This document shows positions 1,523-30,612 of a DNA stretch of 49,771 bases, piece after piece. Every line of letters begins with the position of its first letter. Positions within the stretch are counted from its first letter, which is position 1. Origin of the DNA: Leptolyngbya sp. FACHB-261 (GTDB taxonomy: Bacteria; Cyanobacteriota; Cyanobacteriia; FACHB-261); the NCBI RefSeq assembly GCF_014696065.1, contig NZ_JACJPL010000030.1, positions 1-49,771 of the forward strand, given 5' to 3'. The translations under genes and the position numbers were made by a program. The notes below the pieces were generated by a model. That model was not told the DNA's origin and made no database searches. It saw only the letters and a program-made list of their open reading frames with translations.

Positions 1523-1606
1523 GCCTAACGACCAAGTTGAGCGGCGACAGACAACACCGAAACAAAGCGAGAAGGTTCTAATTGCCGCTTCAACAACTCG
1601 TTAGCT
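1523..1606 (-). other. attC-like integron recombination site
   Basis: Read on the minus strand: R'' AGCTAAC, spacer GAGTTG, L'' TTGAAGCGGC, variable centre, L' GCCGCTCAA, spacer CTTGGTC, R' GTTAGGC. L'' and L' pair perfectly apart from one extra A in L'' (TTGA-A-GCGGC against TTGAGCGGC), the extrahelical base typical of folded attC sites. R' fits GTTRRRY exactly; R'' departs at one position. It starts 8 nt after the stop of the minus-strand ORF 1615-1902, the arrangement of a gene cassette. Confidence 0.75.
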
Positions 1607-3887: not shown

Positions 3888-4169
3888 GTGGCTCGCCAAG
3901 TTCAGCTCACCCCCAAAAAAAGGAAACTAATACTGCAATGTGACGAGTTGTGGTCGTTCGTGGACAACCAGGGCAATCAACAATGGGTCTGGTTAGCTTT
4001 CGACGTGCACACCCGCAAGATCGTTGGGGTTTGTATTGGCACAGGCGATGAAAGGGCGGCCCGTCAGTTGTGAAATGCTTTACCTGCGGTCTACCACCAA
4101 TGTGCTGTTGCCTACGCTGGCTTCTGGACAGTTTACTGCCTGCTTTTGCAAACCACCGACTGACTCAAT
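3888..4169 (+). pseudogene. IS1-family transposase fragment (middle part)
   Basis: Reads CDELWSFVDNQGNQQWVWLA and RKIVGVCIGTGDERAARQL, then an in-frame TGA where IS1-family InsB has Trp, then NALPAVYHQCAVAYAGFW. This is the catalytic-core start of an IS1 transposase with DELWSF carrying the first acidic residue. It lacks the InsA zinc-finger part and the C-terminus and carries a premature stop, so it is dead. Confidence 0.8.
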
Positions 4170-24113: not shown

Positions 24114-24758
24114 TCAACCTGAAAGCCGCACTGATCCTTGATGGATACATTTACTCGTCCGATCGGGACTGGTAAATGCTCGTCCTAGGTTTTCTGCGGT
24201 TTTCAAGTAGAGATGGCGACGCTCTGCATTTGCTTCACCCTCCACATCAAGAAAGTAATGGCTCTCAACATCTGTGAGTCCGCAATAAGCAAAGGTACCC
24301 ACCTCAAGCTGCGCCTTCATAGCATTGTCGTAGCCATACTTTTCATAGGTTGCTTTCCTTGAGCCACCTGTAGCAAGAATCAGGGTTGGGCGATTTTTCA
24401 GCAACCCTCGGCTGGTTGCTTGGGGATCAACAGACCAGGCCCAGCCTCCAGTAAGGACGCGATCAAGCCAACCTTTCATCAGGGCAGGCATCCCCCACCA
24501 GTAAACTGGAAAGATGAAGACTAGTGCATCTGATCGATCGACACGAGCGTGTTCTACTGCTATCTCAGTTGGCAGAGGTTCACCCCAAAAGTGAGCGTGA
24601 TCGGCTTGGGTAAATCGAGGGTCAAACCCCTCTTGATGCAGATCAACAATCTCAGCTGTGGTTCCAGGGTTATCTTCAATGCCCCTGACAAAAGCTTGTA
24701 AAACAGCATGAGGAAAGGTTCCCTCAACAGGGTGTGCAAAGATGATCAGAGTATGCAT
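24114..24758 (-). CDS. NAD(P)H-dependent oxidoreductase, flavodoxin-like fold (NQO/MdaB type)
   Basis: Starts MHTLIIFAHPVEGTFPHAVL, the standard opening of the NAD(P)H:quinone-oxidoreductase-like flavodoxin fold (beta1 and phosphate loop for FMN/FAD). FPVYWWGMPALMKGWLDRV is the conserved flavin-contacting motif, followed by ATGGSRKATYEKYGY. About 214 aa, close to the family length. An upstream in-frame ATG at 24806 would add 16 residues with no family match, so 24758 is preferred. It is divergent from an HxlR regulator at 24878; HxlR proteins often control such quinone or nitro-reductases in response to electrophiles. Confidence 0.88.
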   Translation of the reverse strand: MHTLIIFAHPVEGTFPHAVLQAFVRGIEDNPGTTAEIVDLHQEGFDPRFTQADHAHFWGEPLPTEIAVEHARVDRSDALVFIFPVYWWGMPALMKGWLDRVLTGGWAWSVDPQATSRGLLKNRPTLILATGGSRKATYEKYGYDNAMKAQLEVGTFAYCGLTDVESHYFLDVEGEANAERRHLYLKTAENLGRAFTSPDRTSKCIHQGSVRLSG

Positions 24759-24877
24759 TTCCTTCACTGATTCCTTTTCATGCACAATGGCGTTGATGTA
24801 CTCCAATTCTTACAGCTATGCAATAAGGTTCACAAGTAGGCAGTTTTCAGACAGATACTTACCAAAGGGATACCTTT

Positions 24878-25309
24878 ATGCAAGCACAGGACTTTCAGCC
24901 AACGGCGATCGCCAATCGCGACATAACTGGAATTGATGCCTGGGATACCTGTGACAATCGTCATTCAACGATAGCTTGTCCAACAAGCGAAGTACTTGAT
25001 TTAATCGCACATAAATGGACGGTGCAGATTATTTACTACCTACACCAGCAAAGAGTGCTTCGCTTCCGTCAACTGCATCGTCTTGTTGCACCGATCACTC
25101 AAAAAGAATTGACAAAACGGCTGCGGAAGCTAGAATCTGTGGGACTAATCAACCGTACGGCGTATGCAGAAGTTCCGCCTCGCGTTGAGTATCAATTAAC
25201 CGAGTTGGGGCTAACTTTAGTGCAACCATTGGCTGTCTTAGCTCAATGGGCTGAGGACAATCTTGATACGATTAAAGCTCACCAATCTCAAAATCAGAAT
25301 ATTGATTAA
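24878..25309 (+). CDS. HxlR family transcriptional regulator
   Basis: A 143-aa protein. The family signature CPTSEVLDLIAHKWTVQIIY (Cys at the usual redox/ligand position, then HKW) is followed by the winged helix LRFRQLHRLVAPITQKELTK, LRKLESVGLINRTAYAEVPP, VEYQLTELG. The N-terminal ~30 residues are an extension. It is divergent from the flavodoxin-fold oxidoreductase with about 120 bp between starts, so it most likely regulates that gene, possibly through the conserved cysteine as in YodB/HypR-type proteins. Confidence 0.93.
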   Translation: MQAQDFQPTAIANRDITGIDAWDTCDNRHSTIACPTSEVLDLIAHKWTVQIIYYLHQQRVLRFRQLHRLVAPITQKELTKRLRKLESVGLINRTAYAEVPPRVEYQLTELGLTLVQPLAVLAQWAEDNLDTIKAHQSQNQNID

Positions 25310-25947: not shown

Positions 25948-26197
25948 GTTTGACCGTTGGATATTGGGAATCCCACCGCTATGTTGACTAAAAATTCTGA
26001 GCATGCCGCAAGCTAACCAGCCGCTGGAGCAGCGATTTGAATACTTTGCACTTCGTTTTAGTTCTCTCATCACCGCTTAACTTGGCTGCTAGCCTGCTTT
26101 GCTCATTGGTTAGCGCGGTAGTCGCAGGGTTATCTGTGAGCGTTCAAGTCTACTGAGTGACGGTTATCTGTGGATAGTTTTGAAGTTGTTGATTAGA

Positions 26198-26944
26198 TTA
26201 GAGCTGACTGATACCACCATCAACGGCAATCTCAGTGCCTAAAACATAAGTAGAATCTGAGGTGCTGAGAAACAAGACTGCTTTTGCAATCTCCTCAGAT
26301 GTGCCAAATCGCTTCATGGGGACTTGATCAACAATGTTTTCTGCCAGTGCTTCAACCGCTTCTTGAGGCATATCCAACTTGCCATAAATAGGTGTTGTGA
26401 TTGCACCTGGACTGACCGCATTGACTCGAATACCACGGCTCACCAGTTCCGCCGAAAACGTTCTTACCATTGATCGTACCGCTGCTTTACTTGCCGATAA
26501 AGCACTCGTGCCAGGAATACCAATCTCGCCTAGAAAAGAGGTATTGAGAACGATTGCAGCATTGTCATTCAAATGGGATGCCGCTTTTTGAACGGTGAAG
26601 TATAGTCCCTTTACGTTGATGTTGAACAACTGGTCATACACTGTCTCAGTCATTGCTTCTAGTGTTGCAAATTTTGCAATGCCAGCGTTGGCAAAGAGAA
26701 CATCAATCTTGCCAAACTCCTTCGTGATCTCAGAGTAAAGCTGCTCAATTTGTCTCAAATCCACAACATCAGCTTGAAGTGCCAACACATCGCCACCGAT
26801 TGCTAAAGCTGCTTCATTCAAGGTGTTGCGGTCGCGGCCAGAAATAACAACCTTGGCTCCTTCTTGCCTGAACAGCTTAGCTGTTGCTAATCCAATCCCA
26901 CTGCCACCGCCTGTCACAAGGGCAACTTTTCCAGCTAATTTCAC
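26198..26944 (-). CDS. SDR family oxidoreductase with Leu at the catalytic Tyr position
   Basis: From a GTG at 26944 the 248-aa protein begins like other classical SDRs (KLAGKVALVTGGGSGIG; motif at 11-18). It has NAG (86-88), Ser136 in NTSFLGE, Lys153 in SALSASKAA and the C-terminal DGG. Where Tyr of Y-x-x-x-K is expected, residue 149 is Leu. An upstream start at 27001 would add 19 residues without family match. The gene is divergent from an HxlR regulator at 27079. With Tyr missing, normal dehydrogenase chemistry would be impaired unless another residue takes over; the substrate is unknown. Confidence 0.88.
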   Translation of the reverse strand: MKLAGKVALVTGGGSGIGLATAKLFRQEGAKVVISGRDRNTLNEAALAIGGDVLALQADVVDLRQIEQLYSEITKEFGKIDVLFANAGIAKFATLEAMTETVYDQLFNINVKGLYFTVQKAASHLNDNAAIVLNTSFLGEIGIPGTSALSASKAAVRSMVRTFSAELVSRGIRVNAVSPGAITTPIYGKLDMPQEAVEALAENIVDQVPMKRFGTSEEIAKAVLFLSTSDSTYVLGTEIAVDGGISQL

Positions 26945-27037
26945 GATATTTGCCCTCTCATTTGGAGTGACTGAATACTTTTTTATAGAAGCACAAGCCA
27001 CTATCGATCCGGAAGTGTTTACTAAAAAGTGATATAC

Positions 27038-27051
27038 TTACTAACTAGTAA
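27038..27051. promoter_or_regulatory. Probable HxlR operator between SDR and HxlR genes
   Basis: TTACTA-AC-TAGTAA, a perfect 6-bp dyad 27 nt before the HxlR start, with a further TTTACTA half site at 27018-27024. It resembles the TACT/AGTA type of operator described for YodB-like HxlR proteins. The assignment is by similarity and position. Confidence 0.5.
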
Positions 27052-27078
27052 AAATAGCGCTAGAACAAGACTTCGCTG

Positions 27079-27477
27079 ATGAATAATCAAACGAACAAAC
27101 AGGCAAGAGCATACCTTGCTGAAGCACAGGTGTTTGATACCACCTGTGCTGCTCCTCAAGCGCTCGAACATATTGCAAGCAAATGGGTGATTTTGATCAT
27201 CTATGCACTCTCTCAAGGCACAAAGCGATATAGTCAACTACAACAGCAAATTAAGGGTGTCTCACCAAAAATGCTGATTCAAAATTTGCGAAAGCTGGAA
27301 GCTTGTGGGCTGGTTCATCGGGTCGTGCATCCAGTTGTGCCACCACAGGTAGATTACTCACTCACACCGCTTGGCCAAACACTTGTTGATCCATTAACAG
27401 TTCTCTGTGAATGGGCAATAAACCATGTTCACGAATTGAAACCCGGTCAAAAGAATCGAGAACGTAGGTCTTCTTGA
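27079..27477 (+). CDS. HxlR family transcriptional regulator
   Basis: A 132-aa protein. The family core is CAAPQALEHIASKWVILIIY, then SQGTKRYSQLQQQIKGVSPK, LRKLEACGLVHRVVHPVVPP and VDYSLTPLGQTL. It carries the usual N-terminal Cys before the HKW-like SKW. It is divergent from the SDR gene at 26198-26944, with a palindrome between them, the second such enzyme/HxlR pair within 3 kb. It is distinct in sequence from the HxlR at 24878, so this is not a tandem duplication. Confidence 0.92.
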   Translation: MNNQTNKQARAYLAEAQVFDTTCAAPQALEHIASKWVILIIYALSQGTKRYSQLQQQIKGVSPKMLIQNLRKLEACGLVHRVVHPVVPPQVDYSLTPLGQTLVDPLTVLCEWAINHVHELKPGQKNRERRSS

Positions 27478-27993
27478 CAGAATAAAGTCTTTATGATGCC
27501 TTTGTAGCATAGATGCCGACGCTCAGTTTAGCCGATTTGGGTAGTGGTTGGCATTTGAAGCGGATCAGTTAGTATCTGAGCCCAAATTGTTTTGAGGCTA
27601 TTGAGGAGACAAAGTTTTTAGATTATTGGAAAGCAATCCTAGAGTCATTGCTTTCCCACCAGCACTCTACGCTAAGACATTATTCAGTTTCGTTTTCCCA
27701 ATCAGCCCGACATGGTTTACGGAAGCTTGGTGTGATAACTTCGCGTGAATAACAACCTCATCGTTGTTGGGTCGAGCAAGAGAAATGTTCACTGGGTTGC
27801 TCTAAGTGACATGGGCCGTTGGATCTCAAACGTCCTCATGAGGTTCAATACGATCAGCGTCATGACACTAACTGCTCAGGGACGAGACGCTCTGAGCTTG
27901 GCTGAGCGAGCACGGCTGAGGCACAACGAGCTTACGTCCTAGACAAAGAACTCAGACAGAGCCAGGTAATGGACTGAAATAGATTAAGCGGGA
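27478..27993. other. Gap with no supported gene
   Basis: A 65-codon frame from a GTG at 27745 has no family features and ordinary-looking composition, and I do not call it. No hairpin or repeat stands out until the attC-like site at 27994. Confidence 0.3.
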
Positions 27994-28079
27994 GTCTAAC
28001 GTTGCTGTTGAGCAGCTACAAGTAGCTTCTGCATCTGTAGTAATACTTGATTCAGTCCGCTTCAACAGCAACGTTAGGC
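27994..28079 (-). other. attC-like integron recombination site
   Basis: On the minus strand: R'' GCCTAAC, GTTGCTG, L'' TTGAAGC, about 40 nt of centre, L' GCTCAA, CAGCAAC, R' GTTAGAC. Both R boxes fit the RYYYAAC / GTTRRRY consensus. L'' pairs with L' except for one extra A (TTGA-A-GC against TTGAGC), the extrahelical base that sets strand choice in integron sites. The end of the membrane-protein ORF (stop at 28052) runs into R'', as is common in cassettes. Confidence 0.8.
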
Positions 28080-28486
28080 GGCATCTTAATTACAGGCGTA
28101 GCGTAGAATAATACAATCGCTTGCGCTAGCGAAAGGAAAAAGGTGGCAGCAAGTAATCCGAGTGAGACGGGTAGGCGGAAGGACTCGTCGCCATGCAGAA
28201 GGAAATACGAGTGAATACTAACTGCAATTACTCCTCCAGCCACGAGCAGCCAAGAAAAAACAATACCAGCGGTACGACCTTGAGTTAAACATCGCTGACC
28301 GAAAAGGATCAGCATGACCAGTGGAATGTTAAGTAGCAAGTTTAGTTGAATTCCCCCCGGCATCCCAAACAAATTCCACTCATGCCAATATGCAGCGTCG
28401 ATTTGGTGCGTAATAAGGATGGTTGCATTCACAAGATAGAGCCAAGAAAGCATAGGCTTGGCTACCACTGTCTCTTTAATCAACAT
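28052..28486 (-). CDS. Four-TM small membrane protein, integron cassette gene
   Basis: A 144-aa integral membrane protein with four predicted hydrophobic helices: about 13-30, 45-62 (NLLLNIPLVMLILFG), 73-95 (AGIVFSWLLVAGGVIAVSI) and 105-128. The segment THQIDAAYWHEWNLFGMPGG is distinctive and recalls small DUF6713-like proteins, but I am not certain of the family. The C-terminal PPNVAVEAD is encoded by the attC-like site itself. It stands between two attC-like sites on the same strand, as a complete cassette would. The function is unknown. Confidence 0.75.
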   Translation of the reverse strand: MLIKETVVAKPMLSWLYLVNATILITHQIDAAYWHEWNLFGMPGGIQLNLLLNIPLVMLILFGQRCLTQGRTAGIVFSWLLVAGGVIAVSIHSYFLLHGDESFRLPVSLGLLAATFFLSLAQAIVLFYATPVIKMPPNVAVEAD

Positions 28487-28565
28487 ACCGTTTTGTAGAA
28501 GAAAGCAGATCTGATCTGAATCTATATCAAATACTTACCATTAGCAATTACTTCATAGGTAATGT

Positions 28566-28650
28566 AGCCCAGGACCAAGCTCACCGGACACAGTTGACCT
28601 CCGCAACTCGCCAATCTCCCTGACAGTTCCGGTGCAGCGACTTGTTAGCT
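28566..28650 (-). other. attC-like site, R' degenerate
   Basis: On the minus strand: R'' AGCTAAC, spacer AAGTCG, L'' CTGCACCGGA, centre, L' TCCGGTGAG, spacer CTTGGTC, then CTGGGCT where GTTRRRY is expected. L'' and L' pair with one extra G in L'' (CT-G-CACCGGA against CTCACCGGA). The flanks (CCAGCC before R'', CTTGGTC after L') match the site at 1523-1606, so both belong to one attC family. Confidence 0.65.
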
Positions 28651-28734
28651 GGCTGGTGCTACTCGTTAAAACTAATTTAACCCAGTTTATCCAAAGCAAA
28701 AAATAGGGATGATGTACAATCAGAATCAATCAAC

Positions 28735-29103
28735 TTAGTAGAAATGATTCAATATCATCCAATCTGGGACAGTATCCATCACCCATATCAACTTCAAGTG
28801 TAGGAATGGGTAAAAGCGGCGGATCGTATTTCCTAACGGTATTTCGATTCCTTCTTGAGCAGCACGTACTCCCCAGTCCCCATGAAATTTGAGCCGATTT
28901 GGAGCAGATAAGCTGCGTTGAACAAAACGTGCTCTCGCTAAATGCGGGTCAACCGTGCAAACGATTATCTTGATTTGTGATGATCGGGAGAGCCATTCCA
29001 ACAGTGATACCCAGAGATGATGTTGAAATGCCGCTTCAGCGATCAGCGTGATTTGCTTTGTTAGCAGAAAGTCTAAAACTTCAAAAAATATGCTGTAAAT
29101 ACC
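28735..29103 (-). pseudogene. P-loop kinase-like (AAA family) C-terminal part, cassette gene cut by IS1
   Basis: The frame is open from the IS1 end at 29103 and reads GIYSIFFEVLDFLLTKQI, TLIAEAAFQHHLW, IKIIVCTVDPHLARARFVQR and PNRLKFHGDWG. This matches the second half of small P-loop NTPases of the zeta-toxin/chloramphenicol-phosphotransferase-like kind, but the Walker A end is missing. The stop is 85 nt before an attC-like site on the same strand, so it was the upstream cassette of the array. The IS1 element at 29104-29860 removed its 5' end. Confidence 0.7.
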
Positions 29104-29860
29104 GGCATTGCTGAATAAGGGTATGAAGCTAGGCTAGAACAGGCAGCTCCCGAAACTTGAGATAGTGCAGTAGCAATCGAATAGAGTGTGCCAGTATTTC
29201 TACGGTCTTGGAATAACACAAAGTCTTGCGATGCAAACGAGCCAGGTAGTGCCGCAGTCGTGTGTTTTCATTTTCAACCAGAGGCATGTATGTCTTGCTG
29301 ACAATTTGGTCACCTGGTGGAATGAAGCAAGGATAGACCTTCCAACCATCTGTGACATAAAAATAACAGTGCCAGGGTTCGACCAGATCCCACAACGTCT
29401 TGAAGGTCTTGCCGCTACGGTCACCTAAAACCCAGCCCAGAATCCCTTGCTTGAAATGGTCTACGACTGTCCAGAGCCAGATTTTGTTTTTTTCGAGCCA
29501 ACAAACGTTTCCAGCTCATCGAGTTCACCGACCTGGGGACCTGTGTCTGGATCATAGACATCGGGCAAGCGAGTAGCCACTTGCTTAACCCAGTGAATGA
29601 CTGTGGTATGGTCGACGCCTTTGCCCCGTTCAATCGCGCGAAAGCCGGAGCCACTGACGTACATCTTGAGGCATTCGGCTTTGACCTCATCGCTGTAACC
29701 ACGGGTGCTTTTGTAAGCATCGATAAACTGGCGACCATAGGCAGCGCAGATGTGATTCTGCTTACCTTTCTTCTTGCCGTTCTTACGGATATGAGTATCG
29801 CCACACTCGGGACAGTGCATTGTCGTCTGACCTCAACTCATACCTCTATTCTGCAACGCC
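29104..29860 (-). mobile_element. IS1-family insertion sequence, apparently intact
   Basis: 757 bp bounded by imperfect terminal inverted repeats: GGCATTGCTGAATAAGGGTA (29104 on) and, on the other strand from 29860, GGCGTTGCAGAATAGAGGTA. It holds a complete InsA/InsB' pair. The flanking 9-mers (GTAAATACC and ACTCCGCGC) do not match, so there is no target duplication; this suggests a deletion or recombination after insertion, in line with the truncated gene on its left. Confidence 0.82.
29129..29820 (-). CDS. IS1-family transposase InsA-InsB' (programmed -1 frameshift)
   Basis: InsA (29461-29820, 119 aa) begins MHCPECGDTHIRKNGKKKGK with a CxxC zinc finger and an HTH region. The slippery run AAAAAAAC (29486-29493, minus strand) moves ribosomes into the InsB' frame, KNKIWLWTVVDHFKQGILGW, which runs to a stop at 29129. 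InsB' carries the DDE region (DELETF before the shift, YVTDGW, and the E of the LVENENTRLRH segment). The two-frame arrangement is the normal expression mode of IS1, so this copy is probably functional. Confidence 0.85.
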
Positions 29861-30612
29861 ACTCCGCGCCAGTTTTTGTCGATGACCGATTCGGCTCAGC
29901 GTTGTCTGCCACTTGGTAGCTGACGCCTCGGGTTAAACAGAAGGTGCGGCCCTGCGAGATCGGTGTCCAATTCCCCTTTCAGGCAAAGCAAGATATACCC
30001 CTTCACACACCAGTGGTTTACAACATAGCCTGCCGTATACTCAACCATTCAGACCTGGAGCCTACCAAAGTGGCGTGTATGCCAATACGCATTTCCGGTT
30101 TCGCCAGGATGCTCGGTACACTCAACGTCCTTCCAAGCGGTGCTACCGAACGGGATTTCAGCAATATCCATAGCACCTACCTTTCCGCAGGTGCACGAAT
30201 GATGGCCTACAGTCGTGGTCGGAAACTGCACAAGGACGGTGGGACTCTACCACGAGCTGGCCGACCTCGATCTGGAGGTGGAGGCGTGTCTGATTGCGAG
30301 CAGCGGAGCAGAGACAATTGCCTATCGTCAGCACCTGAGGACAGCCGGAGAGGAAACCGAGTTGCATCACGGCTAGCAGATCGGTACAGGCCTGATTGGG
30401 CTGTCGCTAGACGACCTGGTGCAGCGGACGGTTGTTAGTTGCTGGTGCTGAGTTCAGTCTCATTTGCCGCCGACTACAACCGTTGTGCCGCATTGGTGAG
30501 CGAAGAGCAGGGCGACTTAGCTTTCAGCGATCGCGAAGATAAATGCCTTATAAAAAGTTAACGTTAGGCTATGAGATCTATGTCAAAAGGCTGATTATTT
30601 TCAAGTACTGTT
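29861..30612. other. Gap with decayed coding sequence
   Basis: No intact gene is supported. A plus-strand frame at 30239-30376 reads VGLYHELADLDLEVEACLIA, then SSGAETIAYRQHLRTAGEET to a stop, and continues GTGLIGLSLDDLVQRTVV. It looks like real protein broken by a stop, of no family I recognise. A 164-codon frame from 29944 overlaps it in another phase and is not convincing. Confidence 0.3.

Follow-up and report, generated by a model that had tools for sequence, protein, structure and literature searches.

A cluster of attC sites without an integrase in Leptolyngbya sp. FACHB-261, probably the remnant of a chromosomal integron system

Clusters of attC sites that lack an integron integrase are reportedly what Cury et al. 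named CALINs in 2016. Such clusters are common, with almost 6 sites each on average (PMC9024848), and their described origins are off-target insertion, loss of intI and rearrangement (PMC8618304). Cyanobacteria were recorded among the carriers of integrons in earlier surveys (PMC2426708, PMC8618304), a passage of PMC2426708 cites Boucher et al. 2007 for cyanobacterial integrons and an attC model specific to the Cyanobacteria has already been published (PMC8352920). An earlier, sequence-only reading of the locus described here held that integron-type arrays are little described in the group; this is qualified by these reports and by a sample of 59 genomes of the class, 21 of which carry an IntI above the family cut-off. 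The open-licence literature that was searched yielded no paper devoted to integrase-less attC arrays dispersed through cyanobacterial genomes.

The locus lies in the window, a stretch of 49,771 nucleotides that represents contig C30 in the 6.95 Mb genome of Leptolyngbya sp. FACHB-261 (a draft of 36 contigs, estimated to be 97.7% complete). It is a CALIN, having at least two attC sites less than 4 kb apart, in one orientation and in the order gene-attC, with no IntI nearby, but it departs from the kind as described in sharing its genome with many other attC loci, which together with it make up 21 multi-site groups and 18 single sites. The system shares with sedentary chromosomal integrons, or superintegrons, the similarity of attC sites within the genome, dozens of cassettes and a typical cargo (GNAT, glyoxalase, HAD, APH and GST proteins), but no functional intI was found here and separate arrays at many loci take the place of a single continuous one. 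Its attC sites are of the same 84-90 bp class as those beside intact IntI genes in other cyanobacteria, whereas the integrases of this genome have decayed. The complete integron has a functional intI adjoining attI and an array; the genome has N-terminal relics only, none of them in the window. With a probability of about 0.93 we consider the locus to be the remnant of a formerly active chromosomal integron system whose integrases have since decayed. The features of the window are given below, with scores from R1, an attC covariance model built here as a stand-in for the published IntegronFinder model.

27994 to 28079, minus strand: attC of the DUF6713 cassette, structurally intact by R1 and folding (R'' GCCTAAC, R' GTTAGAC; 56.8 bits, E 5.6e-12 in the window search)
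28566 to 28650, minus strand: attC of the preceding, kinase-like cassette (R'' AGCTAAC; 34.9 bits, E 1.8e-6 in the window search; also aligned with loci L156 and L157, introduced below)
28052 to 28486, minus strand: DUF6713 gene, cassette cargo (PF20460, E 1.6e-39), with its stop codon inside its attC
28547 to 28562, minus strand: inverted repeat TTACCTATGAAGTAAT in the 5' region of the DUF6713 cassette (alignment and sequence search of the genome)
27909 to 28002, minus strand: flank just downstream of the R' cut of the last attC, with 91% identity to the sequence behind a different attC on contig C35
28735 to 29110, minus strand: remaining C-terminal part of a kinase-type gene (P-loop, AAA_33-like) carried by the upstream cassette (open frame; AAA_33 E 0.024)
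about 29104 to 29860, minus strand: IS1-family insertion sequence, the 5' border of the array (DDE_Tnp_IS1 E 3.5e-13; terminal inverted repeats matching at 15/18)
1523 to 1606, minus strand: further attC site (33.7 bits)
30406 to 30488, plus strand: another attC-like site, degraded and oppositely oriented (33.7 bits, E 3.6e-6)
26011 to 26094, plus strand: weak attC-like site, possibly decayed (17.9 bits, E 0.034)

R1 was trained on 20 sites, all from other cyanobacterial genomes and from loci adjoining IntI genes, with the window excluded. As a detector, a plain R-box pattern lacked specificity, its backward control being matched more often, and a first score based on pairing was poor at calling orientation and gave many chance matches. 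A stricter score showed an excess only at 84-90 bp, and for this reason the covariance model was built; in our scan of retrieved loci sites of that length exceeded those in reversed sequence, the counts for lengths of 82-91 being 49 and 11 respectively. Within the L and R boxes of the training set 89% of the cells are paired and covariation is 0.300, compared to 0.115 in shuffles, and drops once the partners are slid; as the training sites were first picked partly by pairing, this covariation is supportive and not independent. L-box/R-box covariation is also found in the genome's own sites, in an alignment fitted to the model. Several cyanobacteria used as negative controls, including two of 4.7-5.1 Mb, gave no R1 match at E<=0.001.

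The minus-strand order proposed by the sequence-only reading, ORF, attC, ORF, attC, is correct, both sites lying where it had placed them, with an intersite distance of 487 bp and on the same strand, and R1 matches both. The R''/R' boxes, one R' degenerate, and the single extra base in L'' (A or G) were also seen as it had described them. The 27994 site is an exact fit to the R''/R' consensus RYYYAAC and GTTRRRY, and its arms are paired except for the extra base, an A; its fold z-scores are -5.9 for the bottom strand and -6.5 for the top strand, with 0 of 200 shuffles folding as well. At the 28566 site the L''/L' stem is perfect (GCT-G-CACCGGA / TCCGGTG-AGC, the extra base being G) and R'' approximates the consensus, but R' proper, at 28567-28573, reads CCTGGGC and does not fit GTTRRRY. 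L156 and L157 have GTTGGGC at the same position and, judged from the aligned sequences, the R' core has changed from GTT to CCT by two substitutions. Since the GTT of R' is lost this attC is predicted to be inactive. The expectation that the bottom strands would fold as attC sites holds for 27994; at 28566 the L stem does form, but the site as a whole folds no better than its shuffles (z -0.98 and -0.07, not significant). Searches of the window with Rfam at the gathering threshold gave no match, and no tRNA or tmRNA was found there.

The ORF preceding the 28566 site had been read as a P-loop kinase-like gene cut by IS1. The frame is open on the minus strand from about 29110 and has a weak similarity to AAA_33, below the cut-off, but the P-loop part is absent. 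An IS1-family element does adjoin the truncated end, but neither a kinase N-terminus nor a target duplication was seen on the far side of the element; that the element cut the gene is plausible. Beyond it lies the plus-strand site at 30406-30488, whose position hints at rearrangement around the IS.

That site and those at 1523-1606 and 26011-26094 were absent from the sequence-only reading. Positions 1-1555 of the window are 96% identical to positions 1-1555 of contig C16 up to the attC, after which the attC bodies differ, and inspection of the shared flank revealed SDR and PadR-like genes. The window contig and C16 start at the same point, probably because the assembly was interrupted by a longer repeat. 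An oxidoreductase with a divergent HxlR-type regulator is repeated near attC sites at 24114-25309 and 26198-27477 of the window and at about 1440-3314 of C35, the pair at 26198-27477 being confirmed by Pfam; each unit may be a large cassette equipped with its own regulator.

The ORF at 28052-28486 had been described as terminating inside its own attC, which was seen, and its product is DUF6713. Homologues were found directly after an attC in Leptolyngbyaceae cyanobacterium SM1_4_3 (locus L156) and Gloeocapsopsis crepidinum (locus L157), with the next attC behind the gene present in the former and truncated in the latter. Alignment revealed that homology to the window starts in the R' box (TGGGCT) in both loci and in L156 extends to the R' of the next attC, and that the DNA outside the cassette, upstream and downstream, is unrelated among the three. 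The comparison of cassette content in relatives, which the sequence-only reading had suggested, thus places the DUF6713 cassette in two other cyanobacteria, bounded at R'. By these alignments the DUF6713 unit is a genuine R'-bounded integron cassette that moves between contexts in three cyanobacteria. This exchange at the R' boundary is the decisive evidence that the sites belong to integron cassettes without an integrase in cis; what had been observed is confirmed and its interpretation as integron cassettes is supported. A second copy of the 93 bp past the R' of the 27994 site (91% identity) stands behind a different attC on C35, and the breakpoints at R', here and at the flank shared with C16, are those expected, from integron biochemistry, of IntI cleavage within the R box.

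The window copy of TTACCTATGAAGTAAT is the sole exact match in the genome. The consensus TTACCTnnGARGTAAT or a close variant is located 5' of DUF6713 in cyanobacterial cassettes and gammaproteobacterial copies alike, at position 3921 of locus L156, 3931 of L157 and L158, 3950 of L160 and 3910 of L161 and L162. Similar inverted repeats lie upstream of DUF6713 homologues from outside the cyanobacterial phylum, those of Alcanivorax and Oceanococcus, and beside these genes neither an R1 match nor a convincing attC match was seen. As a similar repeat precedes these attC-unlinked homologues, DUF6713 may be accompanied by an operator or promoter element of its own as it moves.

The two-cassette array of the sequence-only reading is real, but it is one remnant among about 118 sites and not an isolated oddity. 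When the best 150 of 1540 first-look candidates in the genome were scored, R1 gave at least 113 sites at E<=1, and re-searching the retrieved regions with R1 raised this to at least about 118 sites in 39 groups, a group being sites on the same strand with gaps of <=4 kb. Twenty-one groups have two or more sites and 18 a single one, the largest containing 18 sites (C13:143.7-160.6 kb); the median spacing is about 1.08 kb, and both AAC and GTT are kept in 84 of 114 sites. In 63 of the 78 inter-site intervals the longest ORF runs on the attC strand and in 14 on the opposite one, a single interval having none; for 45 of those 63 ORFs the stop codon, often the TAA of R'', lies at -60 to +150 bp relative to the attC. 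Pfam identified GNAT acetyltransferases, glyoxalases, HAD, GST, APH and VanZ proteins among the cargo, as well as an AAA_33 kinase, SDR proteins and alpha/beta hydrolases, which is the usual content of integron cassettes. PADLOC, run on ten cassette proteins, found nothing beyond one weak match (SngA, E 4e-4). Near-duplicate cassette genes occur at C16:2415 and C34:14791, encoding an uncharacterised family with the motif MRxYLTHCSKEKEPNLKGT, and at C5:11485 and C10:89122, encoding a beta-lactamase-fold protein. The site at C31:196197-196256, beside a small ORF, is a classical 60-bp attC (GCCTAAC/GTTAGAC), unlike the 84-90 bp sites elsewhere, and perhaps belongs to a foreign cassette.

That the window has no integrase gene, as previously stated, agrees with a search of its contig, which gave no integron-integrase match at E<=1. 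No IntI above the TIGR02249 cut-off was found in the whole assembly, and a genome search for IntI recovered five relics, all below the family cut-off.

C5:14704-14898: intI relic, N-terminal only
C26:190989-191314: intI relic, N-terminal only
C26:205041-205252: intI relic, N-terminal only
C26:213833-214038: intI relic, N-terminal only
C31:183093-183176: intI relic, N-terminal only

They are interrupted by stops or frameshifts or are truncated; what is left of them aligns with the N-terminal portion of intact cyanobacterial IntIs, and none of the five retains the catalytic C-terminal part. The idea that they had been split by cassette insertion was dropped, there being no C-terminal halves in the retrieved loci. 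A divergent layout of intI and attC array is normal for an integron. Minus-strand attC sites are found on the 5' side, within about 3.2 kb, of the relics at C5:14704, C26:205041, C26:213833 and C31:183093; the nearest such attC to the relic at C26:190989 is about 10 kb off.

From integron biochemistry and the homology breakpoints, an IntI tyrosine recombinase would have placed the cassettes through single-strand recombination, working on the folded attC bottom strand and cutting at the R box, and the intI genes of the genome would later have decayed to N-terminal pseudogene fragments. With the integrases reduced to fragments the cassettes would be immobile by any enzyme coded in this assembly. 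An integrase supplied in trans could in principle still mobilise the structurally intact 27994 attC; without its R' core the 28566 attC is probably immobile, and the upstream cassette was further damaged next to the IS1-family element.

The cassettes might alternatively have been inserted off-target, at scattered secondary sites, by an IntI elsewhere in the genome, the locus never having stood in an intI-adjacent array. This is one of the three published routes to a CALIN (PMC8618304), and the presence of 18 single-site groups besides 21 multi-site ones and the two loci with different cassettes beside one shared flank are in its favour; it is nevertheless rather unlikely, as the arrays 5' of four relics stand in the canonical divergent orientation and loss of intI in place, with rearrangement, explains them, the window array itself being compatible with either route. 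It is improbable that an intact intI resides on an unassembled plasmid or contig and keeps the arrays active: in its favour are the draft state of the assembly and the intact look of the 27994 attC and of the many sites that retain AAC and GTT, but the estimated completeness is high and every intI-specific match is a truncated or frameshifted relic. That the hairpins are transcription terminators or repeats of the REP or MITE type, which imperfect palindromes behind genes might suggest, can be dismissed almost entirely. It is contradicted by the fact that genomes have exchanged the DUF6713 cassette with R' as the boundary, by the attC-specific R boxes, the one-base asymmetric bulge and the L-box covariation, and by the R' breakpoints and the linkage to intI genes in relatives; the sites of this genome also differ strongly from each other in sequence, unlike a repeat family.

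Matches to attC were found in 47 of the 59 sampled genomes, and 26 of the 38 without an IntI above the cut-off still have them, the most among these being in Leptolyngbya sp. FACHB-261 (68 under a stricter filter). Orphan arrays appear to be more common in cyanobacteria than intact integrons. The CALIN itself is a known kind of locus, and it is the scale and scatter, in this genome and in the class, that are the notable part. A dispersed integron system may, tentatively, be common in the class, with many separate arrays at many chromosomal loci founded by several integron platforms, integrases repeatedly lost, arrays and cargo persisting and large integrase-free cassette reservoirs left that might be mobilised in trans, a view to which we give somewhat less than even odds. 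R1 provides a simple attC model that can be used for surveying cyanobacteria, and whether orphan arrays are dead relics or stores that can be mobilised in trans is now testable. With about 118 sites, the imprint of integron gene capture on a cyanobacterial genome is large, and cassettes can outlast every integrase.
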